Below, in pieces: positions 1,404 to 12,841 of a stretch of 22,092 nt of DNA. Source of the stretch: a virus. The stretch is taken from the IMG/VR virus record IMGVR_UViG_3300037264_002692, positions 1 through 22,092 of that record. The stretch is one strand, 5' to 3'. The notes under the pieces are model-generated. The model was not told where the DNA came from. It worked only from the letters and a program-made list of their open reading frames with translations, and searched no databases. The position numbers were made by a program, and so were the translations under genes. Every line of letters starts with the position of its first letter. The first letter of the stretch is position 1.

Positions 1404-3770
1404 ATGCCACTGCGGATGTGGGGGCATTACATCATCCAAGACACGTTGCCCGCCGAAGATCCCGTGATCCTCGGGACGCTCTGGTACGACGATATCACCC
1501 AACTCCTGAAAGTCTGCACGGCCGTGTCGCCGTATGCGTTTACGTCGCTGGCTGGCGGCGGTGGGCCGCCTGGCACCGTCACGTCGGTGGGGATCACCGT
1601 GCCGACGCTCTTGAGCGTGAGTGGGACGCCGGTCACGACGAGCGGCACGTTCGCCGTCGTGTGGGCGGGCGTCGTCAACCGCGTCCCGTTCTTCTCGGCG
1701 GCGGCAACGTTGGCCACGTCGGCGAGTCTCGAATTCAACGGGGCGCGCCTCACTGTGACGACCGCGGTGCTCGGCAAGGCGCAGTACCGGGCCGCGTGGG
1801 ACGCGATCAACTACACCGAGCTCAAGGTGGACAGCGTCGGCGTGATGACGTTCACGGCCCAAGGCACCGCCCCGGCGTTTGTGTTCAATGAAGTCGTCAG
1901 TCTGGCGGCGGCCACGGCGGCGCACGGGGCGGTGCCCTACTCGACGGCCACCATCTTGGCCTACACGGCTGTCGGGGTGAGCGGGCAAGTCCTGACCTCG
2001 CAAGGGGCCGCCGCGCCGATCTGGACGACGCCCACGACCGGGACCGTCACGTCGGTAGCCATGACGGTCCCGACGGGGCTGTCGGTCAGCGGATCCCCCA
2101 TCACGACCTCGGGCACGCTCGCGGTCACGCTGACGGCCGGGTACATGATTCCAGGAGGGGGGAGTGCGGGGCAAGTACTACAGTCGGCTGGGGCGTCAGC
2201 GCCGACCTTCTCCACGGCGACCTATCCGGCGACGGCGACCGGCACGGGCACAATTCTCCGCGCGGATGGCACGAACTGGGTGGCGACGACCGCCACCTAT
2301 CCGACCACGATCACCGTCAATCAGGTGTTGTACGCCACGGCGACGAATGTCATTGGCAGCCATGCGAATCTCACCTTTGACAGCGCGATCCTGACGGTGA
2401 AGGCCACGGTGGCGATCGACACGTCGGCGGCGGCGGTTGCGCCGCTGACCATCAAATCGAACGCGACGACCGACGGCTACACCATCACCAACTCCGGCTT
2501 CGTTTGGAAGAACGCGGCCGGGGCCGAGATGTGGCGGATCATGGGGAGCGATCCGAATCCGGGCGCGAACAACTATGGGAATCTGTTGTGGGGGTATCTC
2601 GCGGGCGCGAACATCAGCGCGAGTGGAACCGCGACGAACAATCTCGCGCAGGGTTGGAGTGCGCTCGCATCGGCGGTGACTGGCGTTACAGGAGTCTTCG
2701 CGCAAGGCTTCACCGCGCTCTTTTCCATGACGAGCGGCAGCGCCGATGTCGTGATCGGCAGTGAGGCCGCCTATGCCGCGACGGTGAACGTCAACAACAA
2801 CGTCGTCGTTGGCGACAAAGGCGCGACATCCGCGACGGGATTGTCAGGGAACGCTCTGGTTGGCGCGAGCGCCCTCCGCTACGCGACGGCCGTCTATGAC
2901 ACCGTGGCGATTGGCAATGAAGCGGCCCGGAACGTCGTTGGCGGCGGCCAGAATACCGGCACGACGCTGAACGGCGTCTATGTCGGGATTGCGACCAAGG
3001 CCGCGACGGCGGGGCGGACGAATGAGATTGTGATCGGCCACGCGGCTGAAGGCGCCGGGGACAATACGGCGACGTGGGGCAACACGTCGATCACGAATCA
3101 CTATTTCTCCGGAGCGATTAGTGCCGGGAGTCTAACGCTGACGACCCCGCTGGCGCTCGCCTCGGGCGGCACGGCCGCCAATCTGACGGCGGCCCACGGC
3201 GCGGTTGCCTACTCCACGGCCGCTGCGTTGGCCCTCACGGCGGTCGGCAATAGCGGTGAGTTACTGACCTCGGCCGGCGCCGGCGCGCCGACATGGAGTA
3301 CCAAGAAACTCGCCGGGCTGGTCTTCCCGCTCTCGACGAACTACGTCAGCGGCACGGGGACAGCCGGCGTGGACAACACCGCTCAGACGGTCAAGACCAT
3401 TGCCATGGCCGCGAACACGTTGACGCAAGTTGGGGACCGGCTCCGGATTCGGGTGTTCTGGCGGCCGGACACCGGCACGGCCATCGTCGGCACGCTGAAG
3501 GTCAACGCCGTCACGGTCAGTCTTTCGACCTCCAGCACGGCGGCGGCCGAACTCGTGAATGAGGCGTGGCTCGAATACATCGATGCAACGCACGCCAACA
3601 TCATCGCCTACAGCGCGTCGTTGATTGACACGACGACCAGCGCGGTCAATGTCGCGTCGTTCGCGTGGGGGAGTTCGCAGGACATCATCTTCACGCAGAC
3701 TCAGATTTCCAATAACAAGATCGTCGTCTATTCCATCGTCGTGGACATCTTCCCGAAGGGGGTCGCGTAG
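1404..3770 (+). CDS. Modular tail fibre / receptor-binding virion protein (788 aa)
   Basis: The sequence is low-complexity and rich in Thr, Ala, Gly, Val and Ser, as in phage fibres. It holds two copies of a module GTVTSV..TVP..LSVSG.P.TTSGT (residues 57-85 and 213-241), a motif widely seen in phage fibres and adhesins. It also has two copies of AAHGAV.YSTA...L..TAVG.SG..LTS.GA.AP.W (172-207 and 597-632). Residues 440-550 show repeated VIG/VVG/VAIG/IVIG steps followed by A-rich turns, resembling the beta-roll of YadA-type trimeric adhesins. The C-terminal part (637-788) is less repetitive and may be a folded binding domain. AGGAG at 1393-1397 sits six bases before the ATG. Placement ahead of the terminase genes is unusual. 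Receptor binding is inferred; the precise position in the virion is unknown. Confidence 0.8.
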   Translation: MPLRMWGHYIIQDTLPAEDPVILGTLWYDDITQLLKVCTAVSPYAFTSLAGGGGPPGTVTSVGITVPTLLSVSGTPVTTSGTFAVVWAGVVNRVPFFSAAATLATSASLEFNGARLTVTTAVLGKAQYRAAWDAINYTELKVDSVGVMTFTAQGTAPAFVFNEVVSLAAATAAHGAVPYSTATILAYTAVGVSGQVLTSQGAAAPIWTTPTTGTVTSVAMTVPTGLSVSGSPITTSGTLAVTLTAGYMIPGGGSAGQVLQSAGASAPTFSTATYPATATGTGTILRADGTNWVATTATYPTTITVNQVLYATATNVIGSHANLTFDSAILTVKATVAIDTSAAAVAPLTIKSNATTDGYTITNSGFVWKNAAGAEMWRIMGSDPNPGANNYGNLLWGYLAGANISASGTATNNLAQGWSALASAVTGVTGVFAQGFTALFSMTSGSADVVIGSEAAYAATVNVNNNVVVGDKGATSATGLSGNALVGASALRYATAVYDTVAIGNEAARNVVGGGQNTGTTLNGVYVGIATKAATAGRTNEIVIGHAAEGAGDNTATWGNTSITNHYFSGAISAGSLTLTTPLALASGGTAANLTAAHGAVAYSTAAALALTAVGNSGELLTSAGAGAPTWSTKKLAGLVFPLSTNYVSGTGTAGVDNTAQTVKTIAMAANTLTQVGDRLRIRVFWRPDTGTAIVGTLKVNAVTVSLSTSSTAAAELVNEAWLEYIDATHANIIAYSASLIDTTTSAVNVASFAWGSSQDIIFTQTQISNNKIVVYSIVVDIFPKGVA
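1572..2126 (+). repeat. Two GTVTSV-type coding repeats in the tail fibre gene
   Basis: Copies lie at 1572-1658 and 2040-2126. Both encode GTVTSV, then TVP, LSVSG, a P-[VI]-TTSGT turn and a V-rich end. DNA identity is visible in the ACCGTCACGTCGGT block shared by the two copies. A separate pair encoding AAHGAV modules lies at 1917-2024 and 3192-3299. Confidence 0.75.
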
Positions 3771-5515: not shown

Positions 5516-7075
5516 GTGGCCCGCACCCGCCTGACCAGTCCGCAGCCGCTCGTTGAACTCAAGTACAACCCCTACCAAATCTCATTTCTCAACGCCCGAC
5601 GGCTACGGGTCTGTCCCGGCCTCTGCGTGGCCCCCGACGGGACCCGCCTCCAATGGTCGATGCTCGAGTCGCTGGTCTGTCCCGGCTGCCAGAAGACCGG
5701 CATCCGGCCGTTCCGGCGGTTCTACTTGCGGGCTGGGCGCCGGGGTGGCAAGTCGAGAATCGGCGCGCTGTCGGCCATTGAAGAATCCACCGTCCCGTAC
5801 TCGATGGGCTGGTGTTGCGCGCCGAGTTTCCCCGAGCTCGAGGATTATGTCATCCCGGCGTTCTTCTCCCAACTGCCCCAGGAGTGGTTTGACCATCCCC
5901 TGACCGAATGGTCGGAAGATCGGCTCACCCTGGTCCTGCCGAACCGGGCGCAAGTCGCGTTTCGGTCGCTGGACGACCCCAACCGCGGCGCCGGGCCCGG
6001 TCTGGACTGGGCCTGGATCGACGAAGGCCGGAAAATCCAGAAACTCGCCTGGCTGTTGCTCCGGCCGGCCCTGACGGAACGTAAAGGCATCGCGTGGGTG
6101 ACGTCGTCGCCCGACTGGGGCGAGGACTGGTGTCACACCGAGTTCTTTCAGCCCGCGATCGACGGTCGGCCCGGCTACTGGGCGACCGAATACAAGACGG
6201 TCGACAATCCGATCATCGATCCGGCCGAAGTCGAGTCGGCCCGGCTTTCGATGCCGCCCGAACTGTTCCGCCGGGAGTACGAAGCGAGCCTCGAGTACCC
6301 CACGGGGACGATTTACGGCACCCTCATCGACAAATGCGAGGCCGACGACGACCGGATCCGCCAGTGGCTCCCCGAATGGCCCCGGATCGACCCGACCCGG
6401 CCGTCCATTGCCGCGATGGACCCCGGCACCGACCACCCGTTCGCCGCGGTACTGATCGTGGTCACGCCGAACGGGCTGGTGGTCGTCAAAGAGTACGAAG
6501 AACGCAACCGGGTGTATGTCGAACACGCGGCGGCCCTGAAAGTGCTCGTCGCGCCGATGACGCCCCGGTGGGCGATTGACAAAACGCAGGCGCAGGCCGC
6601 GATCGAGATGGCCGCGCACGGGATCTACGCGCAGGGCGCTGAATATGACGTCGACGGCGGGATCCAGCGGGTGTACTCGTGGATGGCGCTCGGCCAACTC
6701 CGGATTGCCCGGTCCACCTGCCCGTTGCTGATCAAACGGCTCCGGCATTACCGCTGGGCCGAGATCGCCGAGACGAAAAAGGGGCTCGGCAAACCGGCGC
6801 CGTTCAAGAAAGACGATGACTTGCCGGATGCGCTCCGGTATTGCGTCATGCTGTGGCCGGAACTGCCCCGCGACGGCCCGGCGCTCGATGATCCGTCGAA
6901 ACGGAACCTGGCGCTCCTGACGCTGCAGGCCCGACTCGAAATCGAGCGGAATCAGTCGCGCGATCCCGATCCGACCGAGGAAGGGATGGTCCGCGTGACC
7001 GATGACTTCACCGAATCTTGGCACGGCGATCTGCAGCCCATCGTTGACAGTGCCTACGCCGAGTTCTATCGTTAG
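5516..7075 (+). CDS. terL: Terminase large subunit, ATPase-nuclease (519 aa)
   Basis: The DNA packaging motor acts at the portal vertex. The ATPase half has Walker A AGRRGGKS (residues 73-80), Walker B DWAWIDE (164-170, catalytic Glu170) and a TSSP coupling motif (196-199). The nuclease half has an RNase H-like fold signature: Asp302 in AAMDPGTD, Asp355 in RWAIDKTQ, and DDDLPDALRY (433-441), where the last acidic residues complete the metal site. Length is normal for the family. An unusual element is an N-terminal cysteine cluster, Cys33/Cys37 and Cys55/Cys58 (CPGC), likely zinc-binding and placed before Walker A. The start is GTG at 5516, three bases after the upstream stop; no ATG lies nearby in frame. 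No clear ribosome site is visible, so coupling is likely. Confidence 0.95.
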   Translation: MARTRLTSPQPLVELKYNPYQISFLNARRLRVCPGLCVAPDGTRLQWSMLESLVCPGCQKTGIRPFRRFYLRAGRRGGKSRIGALSAIEESTVPYSMGWCCAPSFPELEDYVIPAFFSQLPQEWFDHPLTEWSEDRLTLVLPNRAQVAFRSLDDPNRGAGPGLDWAWIDEGRKIQKLAWLLLRPALTERKGIAWVTSSPDWGEDWCHTEFFQPAIDGRPGYWATEYKTVDNPIIDPAEVESARLSMPPELFRREYEASLEYPTGTIYGTLIDKCEADDDRIRQWLPEWPRIDPTRPSIAAMDPGTDHPFAAVLIVVTPNGLVVVKEYEERNRVYVEHAAALKVLVAPMTPRWAIDKTQAQAAIEMAAHGIYAQGAEYDVDGGIQRVYSWMALGQLRIARSTCPLLIKRLRHYRWAEIAETKKGLGKPAPFKKDDDLPDALRYCVMLWPELPRDGPALDDPSKRNLALLTLQARLEIERNQSRDPDPTEEGMVRVTDDFTESWHGDLQPIVDSAYAEFYR

Positions 7076-7797: not shown

Positions 7798-10206
7798 ATG
7801 CTGCCGACCGATCCGTCGTCCCCGTTCCCCGGCGCGCCCGATCTGGCCGGCATTCTGGCCAGCCGGGGCCTGATGGCCCAGAGCCGGCCGAAACCGCCCC
7901 GCCCGGTCCCGGGCCGCCCCGACGGTCAGCCGTCCGGCGACGAGCTCTACGCGCTGCTCGAGGCCGGCGACCCGAAAGGCGATACCCGCGTCCGCAAGCT
8001 CTACAGTGATACCCGCATCGCGTCGGTGGAAGGGCGCGACCAGGTCGAAAAGAGCATGTGGAAGAAATTGCTCTACATCAACGGCCGCCAGTGGATTTAC
8101 GACTCGGGCCGGAACGGGTGGCAGGACAAGCGGATGGCCCGGTGGATTCCCCGTCCCGTGACGAACATCTGTGCCGAAACGGTGTCGTCCATTCGGGCGA
8201 TGTTGTCCGGCATTGACCCGTCGGCCCGGATTCGGCCGATTGGGTCTGACCCGAAGAACGTCATCACCGCCCAACTGTTCGACGACCTCGAACCGGCCCT
8301 CAACGAAGAACACCGGATGCCGAATCGGTGGTTCGAGGCCGACTTCTGGGCGCCGGCGCTCGGCTGCTGCTGGCTGCACCCGATCTGGGACCGTGACGAT
8401 CCGACCCACCAGACGTTTGTCCAGGCCAAACAGTGCGGCGAGTGCGGCCTGCAACTCCACCCGCTCGATCTCGAGGAAGACGACTTCGCCGGCTGTCCGC
8501 ACTGCGGCGCCCCGACCGAAACCTTCGTCGACGCGACCGATCCGCAGGGCGAACCCGTCGGCCAGCTCGACGCGCTCGGATCGGGCCGGACGCAGGTCGT
8601 GTCCCCGCTCGAACTCCTGTTCCCGACGTACTTCCAACGCTGGGAAGACGTCGATCGCCTGATCTTGCTACGGTGGCGGCCGGACTCGTACTACGAAGGG
8701 CGTCCGTACTTCGCGGACATCAAATTCTCGACCAGCACGTTGGAATCGTCACTCGAAATGTACCGATCGCTCGCGTTGATGAACGATCTGACGACCGCGC
8801 CGTTCATGGGCGGCGCGGCGGCCCAAACGCGCACCAAAGGCACGATCGAAGCGGAACTCTGGATCAAGCCGGGTCCCGAATACCCGCAGGGGCTCTGGGC
8901 GCGGCTGTTGGGCAGTACCGCCGGATCGGCGCTCATCGTACGCGACGAGGAACGCGGCGTGTTTCCCGGCCCGCTCCCGTACGAATCCAAACAGGGCAAA
9001 AAACTCTGGCCGTGGGTCTACTACCCGTACGAGGAAGTCGGCGGCCGGATTTATCCGAAAAGCTGCCTCGATTCGATCCTCTCGAAGCAGGATGCCATCA
9101 ATCAGAACGATTCGATGGTCATGCTGATCATGCAGCGGATGGCCAACCCGGTCTGGCTCGAGCCCAAGGGGGCCGAGGTCCAACGGTTCACGGGCGAGCC
9201 TGGTCAGATCGTCCGCTACCAGATCGTCGCGGGCACGCAGGCCAAGCCGGAACGGATCGACGGCATGACGCCCGGCCAAGCCTTCTTCACGCTGCGCGAA
9301 CAGCACTTCGCTGATGCGGAGCGGCTGGCCGGCACGCAGGACGTGTTGAAAGGATCGGCGCCGGGCGGGATCGAAGCGTTCTCGGCGCTGAACCTGCTGG
9401 TCGAACGGAGCCAGTCGCGGTTTACCAGTCTGTTCAAGGCGCGCGGCCGGGCGTACCGGGATTGGCTCGACGTGGCGGTCGAACTCGAACGCAGCTACGG
9501 CCCGGACACCCGTCTGCGGTCCATCGCGGGACCCAATAACACCTGGACGTTCAAGCTGTTCCAAAACGCTGATTTGCAAGGCGCGGTCCAAGTCATCATC
9601 GAAGACGGCTCCACGACGCCGAAAACGGCGCTCGGCAAACGGGCGATGCTGCAGGAAGCCAAGGGGATGGGGTTCATCAATCCGGAAGACCCCGACACGG
9701 CCTATGCCGCGCTCGAACTCCTGGGCGGAACGTCACTCGCGCCGGGATTGAACGTCCACACCAAGGCCGCCCAAGTCGAACAAGACCTGTACGTGACGTG
9801 GGTCCAACAGCGGCGGCCAGGGCCGAGTCCGCTGGTCGTGCAGGCGTGGCAGAGTCACACGATCCACGTCCAACAGCTTGACCTCTGGGCGAATACGGAC
9901 GTGATCCGCGATCTGGTCACGCGGGACCCGATCGCGCAGCAGGAACTCACGCTTCACCGGGTCGAACATCTGGTCGCGCAGGCGAACCCGTTCGGGCTGC
10001 CGCTGCCGGTCCAAGGCGCGCCGATGCCGACCAACCCCAACGCGCCCGGCGGCCCGCTGGGGCCGGGGGCGGCTCCGGGTGAGCCCGGCGCGGCCCCGGT
10101 CGTTGGGGCCGACCGTGCGGCGATGAATTCCGATCAGGAGTCTGGCGCGGTCGATACGCTGCCCGGACTGGCCCCAGGGGGCGGCAATATGGCGCCGCCG
10201 GCCTGA
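7798..10206 (+). CDS. Portal protein (802 aa) with an inserted zinc ribbon
   Basis: The portal forms the dodecameric ring at one capsid vertex through which DNA is packaged and ejected. The call rests on size (P22-type portals are about 700 or more residues), position after the large terminase and before scaffold and coat, and typical content. That content includes the early helix-strand region (SMWKKLLYINGRQW), PRPVTNIC..TVSSIRAML, the central YPYEEVGGRIYPKS..DSILSKQDAINQNDS helix region, and a Pro/Gly-rich tail from about 735. An odd feature is a CxxC-CxxC zinc ribbon, Cys213/Cys216 and Cys233/Cys236, inserted near the middle of the N-terminal half. AGGAG at 7784-7788 precedes the ATG by nine bases. 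Fold-level identity is inferred but consistent. Confidence 0.9.
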   Translation: MLPTDPSSPFPGAPDLAGILASRGLMAQSRPKPPRPVPGRPDGQPSGDELYALLEAGDPKGDTRVRKLYSDTRIASVEGRDQVEKSMWKKLLYINGRQWIYDSGRNGWQDKRMARWIPRPVTNICAETVSSIRAMLSGIDPSARIRPIGSDPKNVITAQLFDDLEPALNEEHRMPNRWFEADFWAPALGCCWLHPIWDRDDPTHQTFVQAKQCGECGLQLHPLDLEEDDFAGCPHCGAPTETFVDATDPQGEPVGQLDALGSGRTQVVSPLELLFPTYFQRWEDVDRLILLRWRPDSYYEGRPYFADIKFSTSTLESSLEMYRSLALMNDLTTAPFMGGAAAQTRTKGTIEAELWIKPGPEYPQGLWARLLGSTAGSALIVRDEERGVFPGPLPYESKQGKKLWPWVYYPYEEVGGRIYPKSCLDSILSKQDAINQNDSMVMLIMQRMANPVWLEPKGAEVQRFTGEPGQIVRYQIVAGTQAKPERIDGMTPGQAFFTLREQHFADAERLAGTQDVLKGSAPGGIEAFSALNLLVERSQSRFTSLFKARGRAYRDWLDVAVELERSYGPDTRLRSIAGPNNTWTFKLFQNADLQGAVQVIIEDGSTTPKTALGKRAMLQEAKGMGFINPEDPDTAYAALELLGGTSLAPGLNVHTKAAQVEQDLYVTWVQQRRPGPSPLVVQAWQSHTIHVQQLDLWANTDVIRDLVTRDPIAQQELTLHRVEHLVAQANPFGLPLPVQGAPMPTNPNAPGGPLGPGAAPGEPGAAPVVGADRAAMNSDQESGAVDTLPGLAPGGGNMAPPA

Positions 10207-10478
10207 CCCGGATCTGCAGCGGAGGCGTTCCCGCGGCCCGCGCCCGTCATGGCGCGGCCACTCTCACCCTCGACGCAGCGAGGCCAGACGCCAAGCCTGC
10301 GATGGCGATCCGACGCGCCACGAGCCCCCAGCGGCCCCCACCCGGCCGTGAATGATGGGCGGTCGTCGGGCTGTTCTGGTGTCAAGTTCTTGACACCACC
10401 TGTCATTTCGGTGACACTTCCCGTCAGTCACAACCCACACGCGGAACCTGACCGCGATACCAAGGGAAGGTCACGACC
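10207..10478 (+). promoter_or_regulatory. Intergenic region between portal and scaffold, with hairpin and promoter
   Basis: No convincing gene is present. A 9-bp hairpin with one bulged C (10235-10259, loop CGTCAT) lies shortly after the portal stop. It has no U-rich tail, so it is at best a weak terminator. Positions 10377-10430 hold an operator array and promoter described separately. The scaffold ribosome site GGGAAGG ends nine bases before its ATG. Confidence 0.6.
10377..10418 (+). promoter_or_regulatory. Promoter TTGACA-17-GACACT covered by two palindromic operators
   Basis: TTGACA at 10390-10395 and GACACT at 10413-10418 are 17 bases apart, an ideal sigma70 spacing. The palindrome TGTCA-N6-TGACA occurs at 10380-10395 and again at 10401-10416, exactly 21 bases apart. 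The first extends to a perfect 10-bp inverted repeat (TGGTGTCAAG, TT, CTTGACACCA). One copy covers the -35 and the other the -10. A third half-site, CGTCA, falls at 10422, also 21 bases on. A dimeric regulator binding twice on one helix face is inferred. It would drive the scaffold and coat genes. Confidence 0.68.
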
Positions 10479-11360
10479 ATGCACCGAACACCCCGCACAC
10501 GATTCTGTAAGCTGTTTCAGGTCCCCGATGGGACCGGCGCTGGCGGTCCTGCCGGCGGATCCGCTTCACCTCCTGCCGCTCCTCCTGCGGCGCTCGCGCC
10601 TGGCTCGGCTCCGGCCGGTCCCGCGTCGGGCGTCCCCGGATCGGGCGCAGGCCCCGGTGCGGGCGGCGCTGCCCCGGCCGCGACTCCAGAGTTCAAGTTT
10701 GCCGAAGACCGCTCGAAGTGGATCCCCCCGTACCGGCTCGATGAGGAACGACAAGAGCGCGAACGTCTGTCGCGCGAGTACGATCGCCTCAATCAGAAGG
10801 TCCGGGCGCTCATGGGGGTCGAAGAACCGGCCGATCCCCGCCGGACGGAAATCCGGAATGCCATCCTGCAAGTCTTTCCCGAACTGCAGTCCGTCGTGAG
10901 CGGCGAATTACAGGGCGGGGTCCGCGGTGCGGCCCAGGCCGAACAGGCGTACTGGGGCCGTCATGCGTCGACGATGACGCAAAACGCCGTGGACGCGCTG
11001 GCCAAAGAACTCGGCCAGGACGCCAAGGCGATGGGGCCACAGGCACGGTCCCGGATGGCGGCCGAATTGCAGCGGTTCATTGCGTCCGACCGCACCGGCG
11101 AGCGCAACGACCGCTACGAGCAGGGGGATCCAACCCTCATCGACGAATTGATTGCGGACTTGCGCGGGTTTTACGTCGAACCCGTGCGACGGTCAGCTGG
11201 GGTCCAGGGCGCCTCTGCGGCAGAGCGCGTCCGACGGCTCCCCTCGACCGGGCCCAGCGGAGGCATCCCGCCCACGCCGGCCGCCGACAAACCCAAGGGC
11301 AAGGCCCTACACGAAGCCGCGCGCCAGGACTTCTTGGCCCGGATCGCGTCCGGTCAGTAG
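10479..11360 (+). CDS. Probable capsid scaffolding protein (293 aa)
   Basis: Scaffold guides coat assembly and then leaves the procapsid. The gene lies between portal and coat, its usual place. Residues 18-70 are a Gly/Ala/Pro-rich flexible stretch. Residues 85-112 are a charged helix, probably coiled coil (DEERQERERLSREYDRLNQK). Residues 120-235 are mostly helical with many Gln, Ala and Glu. The end is basic (KPKGKALHEAARQDFLARIA, 271-290), like the coat-binding helical tail of P22-type scaffolds. GGGAAGG precedes ATG 10479 by nine bases. The low-complexity content and position support the call; no catalytic motif is expected. Expression probably starts at the promoter about 55 bases upstream. 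Confidence 0.72.
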   Translation: MHRTPRTRFCKLFQVPDGTGAGGPAGGSASPPAAPPAALAPGSAPAGPASGVPGSGAGPGAGGAAPAATPEFKFAEDRSKWIPPYRLDEERQERERLSREYDRLNQKVRALMGVEEPADPRRTEIRNAILQVFPELQSVVSGELQGGVRGAAQAEQAYWGRHASTMTQNAVDALAKELGQDAKAMGPQARSRMAAELQRFIASDRTGERNDRYEQGDPTLIDELIADLRGFYVEPVRRSAGVQGASAAERVRRLPSTGPSGGIPPTPAADKPKGKALHEAARQDFLARIASGQ

Positions 11361-11386: not shown

Positions 11387-12841
11387 ATGTCCGATCGACT
11401 CGCTCGCACACTCCAGCATCCCTACGCGGTGCTGATCCAGATCATCACCCTCGCGGTCCTCGCGTACCTCCTCACGGACAACCCGGCCATGGCAGGCTTT
11501 CTTGTGCTGGGGAACGTCGGGGCCACGTCGGCCGCCATCGACGGGATGCTCAAGGACGACTATGAGGATTACGTCGGCGACGGCGTCAACAAACTGAACC
11601 CCCTGTCCGACATCATCGAAGACAAGGACACCGACAAGGACTTCGGCGGCCGGCGCTTCATGTACCCGGTGGAGGTCGAACCCAACAAGTCGCCGATGTT
11701 CACGACCGAGTACGGCCTGTTTGCGGAGGCCGGCGTGACGCAGCACTTGCAGGTCAGCGGCACCGTCAAAAAGATGATGGGCCGCGTCCTGATGACCCCG
11801 GAAGCGATGCTCGACACGGCCAACAAGAAAGGCGCGTGGGAAGACGTGATGACCACGCAGTTTGACGGCCTGATCACCCGCATCGCCCGCCGCGCCGAGA
11901 TTGCGCTCAACCTCGACGGCCGCGGCGTGCTCTGCCGGATCAACGACGCCACGCCGTCCGGCGCGACGTTGTGCGGGGTCGATAGCCCCGGCGGCATCAC
12001 CGGCGCGACGTTTGGCTCCCGCTACGTCGAGAAGGGCATCTACGTCGGCGCGATCAACCCGGCCACCGGCGCCCTCCGCACCGGCATCCGAAAGGTCGTG
12101 TCGCTGGCCACCGACGGCACCGGGATCACGTTCGACTCGGCGCCCGATGCGTCGTGGGCCGACAACGACTACCTGGTCAAGGCCGCGAACAGCACCGTGA
12201 CCGACCCGCTCGACACCGAGTACGAAGGCGCCTACTGGGGCCTGCTCGCGCTGGTCGATGACGGCACGTACCGGACCGACTACTTCGGGGTCGACCGGAC
12301 GCTCTACGACTACGAGAACAGCTACGTCAACGCGAGCACCGGCGCCTTGTCGATCGACACGTTGCAGATGATCGCCGACGTGACCGATCAACGGATGGGC
12401 GGCGAAACCGACCTGATGCTCGCGCACCACTCGATCCGCCGGCTCTACATCAAACTCACCCAGGCCGACCGCCGGTACTCGGGCGAGAACCTACAGAAGC
12501 CGGACGCGGGGACCGTGGCGTTCAAGTCGCCGTCCAAGGGCGACATCACGATGGGCGAAGTGCCGATCCGGGTCGTGCGGGACTTCCCGTACGGGATCCT
12601 GATGGGGCTCGACACGTCCCGCATGAAGCTGATCCGGTACGTCTCGGAAAAGGGCAAGTGGGTCAACGACCTGGACGGCCGGATTCTGGTCCGGGCCGGG
12701 TTCGGCGCGACCGCCCGAGACGCGGCCGAGGCCTGGTATCGGCAGCGGTACCAGTACCACATGAAGACGCCCTCGGTCTGCTGGCGTGCGGACGGGATCA
12801 CCGGCGCGTCGATCGTGGTGGTTCGCCCGATCGGCGGCTAG
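11387..12841 (+). CDS. Major capsid protein (484 aa), HK97-fold type, with a hydrophobic N-terminus
   Basis: It follows the scaffold gene and has the look of a large coat protein: a conserved-looking N-terminal arm after residue 45, a DKDFGGRRFMYPVEVE strand (83-98), a repetitive beta-rich middle with insertions (residues about 185-280), and an end with SVCWRADGITGASIVV. The start at ATG 11387 has AGGAG eight bases upstream. Residues 12-29 (PYAVLIQIITLAVLAYLL) form a membrane-like segment not expected in a coat protein. An in-frame ATG at 11489 (MAGFLVLGN) would remove it but has no ribosome site. The first 34 residues may be cleaved or be a leader. A strong terminator follows. Confidence 0.85.
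   Translation: MSDRLARTLQHPYAVLIQIITLAVLAYLLTDNPAMAGFLVLGNVGATSAAIDGMLKDDYEDYVGDGVNKLNPLSDIIEDKDTDKDFGGRRFMYPVEVEPNKSPMFTTEYGLFAEAGVTQHLQVSGTVKKMMGRVLMTPEAMLDTANKKGAWEDVMTTQFDGLITRIARRAEIALNLDGRGVLCRINDATPSGATLCGVDSPGGITGATFGSRYVEKGIYVGAINPATGALRTGIRKVVSLATDGTGITFDSAPDASWADNDYLVKAANSTVTDPLDTEYEGAYWGLLALVDDGTYRTDYFGVDRTLYDYENSYVNASTGALSIDTLQMIADVTDQRMGGETDLMLAHHSIRRLYIKLTQADRRYSGENLQKPDAGTVAFKSPSKGDITMGEVPIRVVRDFPYGILMGLDTSRMKLIRYVSEKGKWVNDLDGRILVRAGFGATARDAAEAWYRQRYQYHMKTPSVCWRADGITGASIVVVRPIGG

Follow-up and report, generated by a model that had tools for sequence, protein, structure and literature searches.

What controls the scaffold and capsid genes of the phage represented by a 22,092-base viral contig? 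On the + strand of this contig (the window, analyzed over its full length), genes for the large terminase (5516–7075), a P22-type portal protein (7798–10206; phrog_156, P22-portal-like), a putative scaffold protein of 293 amino acids (10479–11360), and the major capsid protein (11387–12841; phrog_14242) follow one another in this order. In the 272-base gap between the portal and scaffold genes, the first-pass annotation had described a double palindrome, which it read as a plausible binding site of a dedicated regulator of capsid expression. Judged from its sequence, the interval from 10377 to 10481 is the control region of the scaffold and capsid genes of a podovirus-like phage. It probably consists of a sigma70-type promoter and a conserved RNA pseudoknot leader ahead of the scaffold gene.

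The putative scaffold gene has no Pfam or PHROG match of its own; it is named for its position between the portal and major capsid genes and for its relationship to the open reading frame (ORF) found at the same place in relatives. A search of 84,980 genomes yielded no homologues of the portal protein, and the contig was therefore not assigned to a host. The contig also carries a tRNA-Met gene at its very end (20–91, − strand) and a long ORF of 788 amino acids (1404–3770), possibly encoding a tail-fiber-like protein, in which an internal repeat of ∼112 nt recurs at a spacing of 1272 nt with 74% identity.

Promoter and palindromes in the portal–scaffold gap

The TTGACA-17-GACACT promoter that had been proposed for the scaffold and coat genes is supported by comparison with other phages. 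Its −35 element TTGACA (10390–10395) and −10 element GACACT (10413–10418) lie on the + strand with a 17-base spacer between them, and transcription would start near 10425. Approximately 18 related contigs were found by their portal and capsid proteins, and 10 distinct phages were compared. Nine of these 10 distinct relatives keep the promoter as TTGAC[A/T/G]-17/18-xAxxxT, located 78–107 nt upstream of the ATG of the scaffold gene; the shuffle probability is 0.2%–2.5% for each. The −10 sequence is GACACT in the window, L002, L004, and L023, and CACACT, CATCCT, CATTCT, TAATCT, or GACCAT in the others. In 263 kb of sequence from relatives, TTGACA-N17/18-NANNCT was counted 10 times, compared with 1.1 times in shuffled sequences.

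A TTGACA-like −35 element, a −10 element with A at position 2 and T at position 6, and a spacer of 16–18 bases are what is expected of sigma70-type bacterial and phage promoters, and all of them are present here. In contrast to such promoters, the −10 sequence GACACT is far from TATAAT, and palindromes surround the hexamers in the window phage only. A generic consensus scan missed the promoter because GACACT matches only three of six positions. A divergent promoter on the minus strand was rejected, as it has no −10 element.

The palindromes themselves are readily confirmed. TGTCA-N6-TGACA occurs twice, 21 bases apart, as TGTCAAGTTCTTGACA (10380–10395) and TGTCATTTCGGTGACA (10401–10416), and these are the only exact matches in the window. 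Pairs of N6 palindromes with identical arms located 16–40 bases apart were found once in the window and never in 100 dinucleotide shuffles; chance arising from base composition does not account for the double palindrome. Palindrome 1 is longer than first stated, being a perfect inverted repeat with 10-bp arms (TGGTGTCAAG-TT-CTTGACACCA) that spans 10377–10398 (shuffle P 0.002). The right arms coincide with the promoter hexamers: that of palindrome 1 is the TTGACA, and that of palindrome 2 overlaps the −10 element (TGACACT, 10412). The 21-base step of the palindromes therefore follows from hexamers separated by a 17-base spacer, which leaves only the left arms to be explained. The third half-site noted earlier, CGTCA, is indeed present at 10422–10426, but it stands alone, with no second arm to match it, and relatives do not retain it. 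The palindromes either surround the hexamers by chance or arose recently in this lineage.

The annotation had named a lack of conservation of the motif in related phages as evidence against its own proposal. The double palindrome was indeed found not to be conserved, though the promoter is kept. The first left arm occurs in the window only and is missing in L002 (GGTCGCTTTCTTGACA) and L004 (CGGCATTTTCTTGACT). Palindrome 2 is present with one mismatch in L002 (CGTCA..TGACA) and L004 (TGTCA..CGACA), and is missing in L023, L024, L025, L028, L029, and L038. A CTGTCA in the L004 spacer, at the same place as that of the window, is the only sign of constraint on the palindrome.

It is possible, but rather unlikely, that palindrome 1 is simply a terminator hairpin for the portal transcript that overlaps the −35 element by chance, with palindrome 2 being incidental. 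The 10-bp perfect inverted repeat was flagged as terminator-like (one found vs. 0.1 expected), and strong hairpins are present between the portal stop codon and the promoter in L004 (then ATTTTCTT; z −4.8) and L038 (z −3.0). However, the window hairpin has no proper T run (its tail is CCTGTCATTT), and no significant hairpin was found at the same place in L023, L024, L025, L028, and L029. The inverted repeat reaches significance only in the window and L038, and the hairpin energy only in these two and L004; the cause in all three may be a terminator that precedes the promoter. The L004 hairpin (GCCGTACTGTCAGAAATCTGACGTACGGC, followed by ATTTTCTT), located at 6061–6095 of that contig between the portal stop codon and the scaffold promoter, is likely to be a terminator directly upstream of the promoter.

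A more doubtful explanation is that a dimeric phage or host protein binds both palindromes on one face of the DNA and acts on the scaffold promoter as a repressor or activator. Base composition does not predict a pair of exact palindromes in phase, L004 keeps the spacer CTGTCA and yet branches outside closer relatives that lack it, and double sites of this form turn up in 18 viral contigs, frequently within longer arrays with a 21-base step. The operator of a dimeric repressor would be expected to conserve both half-sites across relatives sharing the regulator, which is not the case here: beyond the restriction of the first left arm to the window, six relatives carry neither palindrome and nevertheless keep the promoter. 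Moreover, no regulator gene was identified, and the arrays found elsewhere lie beside unrelated genes. Because relatives keep the promoter but not the palindromes, the existence of a dedicated DNA-binding repressor or activator of capsid expression, as first suggested, seems improbable, although a repressor specific to this lineage may exist.

The exact double palindrome is present in the 18 viral contigs and in 15 bacterial or archaeal contigs, often within 21-base arrays. These 15 are the only exact matches in the 84,980 genomes; they are scattered, have no taxonomic focus, and form no regulon. The neighbors of such arrays, which include genes for a terminase small subunit, an AAA ATPase, and a plasmid RepA, among others, are unrelated. 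The double sites elsewhere suggest no common binding protein, nor do they account for the pair in the window. Among unrelated phages, tandem TGTCA-N6-TGACA arrays with 21-base steps and two to six copies were observed in L006, L010, L011, L013, L014, L015, L018, L022, and others, and in the low-GC phages L006 and L015 the large ORF nearest to the array is a terminase small-subunit gene. Similar 21-base palindrome arrays occur in the bacterial contigs L069, L070, L077, and L079, beside a plasmid RepA gene in L077 and beside a SocA-like antitoxin gene in L070.

The annotation had also raised an iteron-like replication site. An iteron origin has at least three direct repeats near an initiator gene; the window has only two copies at a single place on the contig, with no array and no replication gene nearby, the neighbors being the portal and scaffold/capsid genes. 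Pho-box and ECF41-type readings (TGTCA-N16-CGTC) were rejected, as the CGTC is not kept in relatives. A literature search for TGTCA-N6-TGACA operators found nothing relevant.

A hairpin and predicted pseudoknot in the scaffold leader

Between the promoter and the scaffold ATG, the + strand carries a small element (10440–10470) that begins with a hairpin, P1 (10440–10456). In the window, P1 is made of CGCGG (10440–10444) and CCGCG (10452–10456), which enclose the loop AACCTGA (10445–10451). Every relative has a short hairpin in the interval between promoter and start codon, with stems such as GCTGG/CCAGC in L038, CGTGG/CCACG in L004, and CGAGG/CCTCG in L034. In a test with 10 sequences, all five base pairs were kept in 10 of 10, and three of the pairs had changed on both sides. 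In an alignment of 44 distinct sequences, 220 of 220 cells were paired, with 11 double-sided changes distributed over four of the five pairs, and none of 500 shuffles was as good; this larger alignment was fitted to the structure, which favors pairing, whereas the 10-sequence test was not. The stem P1 is therefore supported by covariation.

P1 is followed in the window by an A-rich linker (loop L3, ATACCAA, 10457–10463), which appears as a conserved tail in alignments, and by GGGAAGG (10464–10470) in the scaffold ribosome-binding region. The G residues at 10464 and 10465 can pair with C10447 and C10448 of the hairpin loop, forming a predicted second helix, P2. Across phages, changes in the loop are matched by changes in the tail: AACC is found with GGG, AACU with AGG, ACAC with GUGU, CCAC with GUGG, and AAUC with GAUU. 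A 3-bp match between loop and tail is present for 92% of distinct loops, compared with 64% when tails are permuted, and none of 1000 permutations reached so high a value. The pair between the fourth loop base and the first tail base (l4–t1) is Watson–Crick in 48 of 53 elements (C-G 26, U-A 20, G-C 2; permuted mean 23.7, maximum 34), and the l3–t2 pair is Watson–Crick in 47 of 53 (P 0.0005). P2 thus has covariation support at two base pairs, and the 53 elements give no such support to P2 pairs beyond these. Three exceptions (L104, L081, and L096) pair loop and tail in a register shifted by one.

The fold can be described as a 5-bp stem with a loop of 6–7 nt, in which bases three and four pair with the two bases that follow CAA in a CAA-RGG tail. 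Stem and tail are joined by an A-rich linker (AUAACAA), and the very short P2 extends into the AAGGG or AAAGGU ribosome-binding region. The covariation between loop and tail indicates that the leader is an H-type pseudoknot predicted to touch or overlap the Shine–Dalgarno region. In the window, the P2 bases GG (10464–10465) lie just upstream of the likeliest Shine–Dalgarno core, AAGG (10467–10470), and occlusion would therefore be partial. In AAAGGU leaders, P2 falls inside the Shine–Dalgarno sequence itself. From these comparisons, the conserved feature of the site is the predicted downstream RNA fold, not the DNA palindromes.

Some variation in the architecture of the element was observed. 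An extra hairpin or spacer lies between P1 and the ACAAAGG tail in L143, L160, L173, L138, and L159, with loop and tail kept; in L143 and L160 this is an additional hairpin in the linker, and the tail that is kept ends in ACAAAGGU. In addition, L187, L183, L180, and L176 carry a weaker second copy of the element within ∼130 nt.

We consider it very unlikely that the leader element works as DNA (e.g., as a recombination or packaging site) and not as RNA. Symmetric DNA sites would likewise retain complementarity between their arms, but the tail of this element is asymmetric and covaries with the loop. Furthermore, the element is always located on the coding strand, 30–43 nt before the start codon, and is present essentially once per genome.

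Occurrence of the element among phages

A covariance model (R1) was constructed from 10 leaders found by protein homology, and an unbiased set of 80 capsid loci was gathered by protein similarity alone. At E ≤ 0.01, R1 detected the hairpin and tail (ATACCAAGGG) in 44 of the 80 loci, 30–43 nt ahead of the scaffold gene. Six of these matches are records used to build R1, and the counts do not represent independent events, as the 80 loci include near-duplicates. The other 36 loci gave no R1 match at this threshold; some carry diverged forms, and others may be without the element. With a refined model, 69 of 73 matches are located 700–1500 nt upstream of the capsid match. In most loci, a scaffold ORF of ∼265–330 amino acids opens 30–43 nt after the start of the hairpin. 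Non-phage and array-bearing control loci gave no match at E < 0.03.

R1 also finds the element in ctLwi270, a named but distant phage, immediately upstream of the ORF that precedes the capsid gene, and a DNA pattern scan located it before scaffold-position ORFs in ∼15 further phages. In L096, the element is upstream of a recognized scaffold gene (phrog_194; Pfam Phage_scaffold PF06810, E 5e-36). The capsid genes beside the element belong to phrog_14242, 267, 212, and 371, and the tailed phages that bear it represent at least four major-capsid families, with capsid identity down to ∼25%.

No Rfam 15 model matched the window at E ≤ 1 or the element in seven relatives at E ≤ 2, and a literature search on scaffold-leader RNA elements found nothing relevant. 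The pseudoknot model gave two matches in a scan of 149 genomes from a single phylum and 150 from a single family. Both were treated as chance: only one could be placed, and it is not followed by a scaffold gene, and neither of the contig pieces matched the phage proteins. Among named phages with related capsids or scaffolds, no covariance-model match of weight was found in Paenibacillus Tripp, Streptomyces Rowa, Gordonia Nyceirae, Arthrobacter Adat, Microbacterium Shocker, Mesorhizobium Cp1R7A-A1, Microcystis Mwe-JY26, P22, Fusobacterium FNU_1P, Brevibacillus Abouo, ct2os315, and D6E. Look-alike pseudoknots (e.g., CCGG-ACGCAA-CCGG-GATACAAA-GCGT) were seen just before the scaffold gene in cultured phages, namely the Brevibacillus phages Abouo (L212), Jimmer1 (L215), and Davies (L218) and Paenibacillus phage Tripp (L105). 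They were found by a loose descriptor with a chance rate of 5% per window and are not called by the covariance model, and are only a lead.

Proposed role of the leader and comparison with known systems

The TTGACA-17-GACACT promoter would transcribe a leader carrying the H-type pseudoknot, which in turn would set the frequency of ribosome initiation on the scaffold gene. In its simplest form, a ligand would stabilize the fold and hide the ribosome-binding site. If the scaffold protein were this ligand, then scaffold output would be tied to head assembly. Palindrome 1 may in addition weakly terminate the portal transcript. We slightly favor translational control of scaffold synthesis as the effect of the pseudoknot. 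The best candidate for the ligand is the scaffold protein itself, although this is a tentative choice; it is the most economical one, as the element accompanies scaffold genes from phage to phage. The fold may instead respond to a host factor or a metabolite, or it may simply stabilize the mRNA.

The scaffold protein of phage P22, encoded by gene 8, is said to regulate its own synthesis post-transcriptionally. P22 shares the gene order portal–scaffold–coat, and the same logic would be expected there, but P22 has neither a match to the leader element nor a comparable leader gap. The nearest annotated phage, Podoviridae sp. ctLwi270 (MW202554.1), has a capsid protein 37% identical to that of the window and carries the hairpin and tail before its pre-capsid ORF. 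In contrast to the window, its 68-base gap has no palindromes and no TTGACA promoter.

A precedent for such control is the pseudoknot in the gene 32 leader of phages T4 and T2, which is used for translational autoregulation by gp32 and is maybe the only viral pseudoknot used in this way (PMC3014915). It lies 67 nt upstream of the start codon and nucleates cooperative binding of gp32 (PMC3014915). Both are H-type pseudoknots in phage mRNA leaders, whereas the scaffold-leader pseudoknot is 30–43 nt from the start codon, touches the Shine–Dalgarno region, and precedes scaffold genes.

The least probable reading, that the leader is a small-metabolite riboswitch related to preQ1-I, draws on a topology shared with the tiny H-type pseudoknot of type III (5-bp P1, short loop, A-rich L3, and P2 pairing with an AAGG-like Shine–Dalgarno sequence; PMC11625349), but the bases that give preQ1-I its specificity, a cytosine immediately before the P1 3′ strand and, in types I and III, UU after the 5′ strand (PMC11625349), are found in only 5 of 53 and 0 of 53 elements, respectively, no Rfam preQ1 model matches, and the element is found only before scaffold genes and not upstream of queuosine genes.

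Leader pseudoknots are already known; the present family and its link with scaffold genes are absent from Rfam 15 and the searched literature, but may be described elsewhere. We tentatively suggest that the element represents a widespread, previously undescribed family of ∼30-nt H-type pseudoknots through which free scaffold protein could limit its own translation, matching supply to assembly. It has long been asked how phages match the amount of scaffold protein to capsid assembly. A compact, covarying pseudoknot that precedes scaffold genes in phages whose capsids differ greatly would offer a concrete, testable RNA control point for this process, and would also provide a ready-made model for searching phage genomes.
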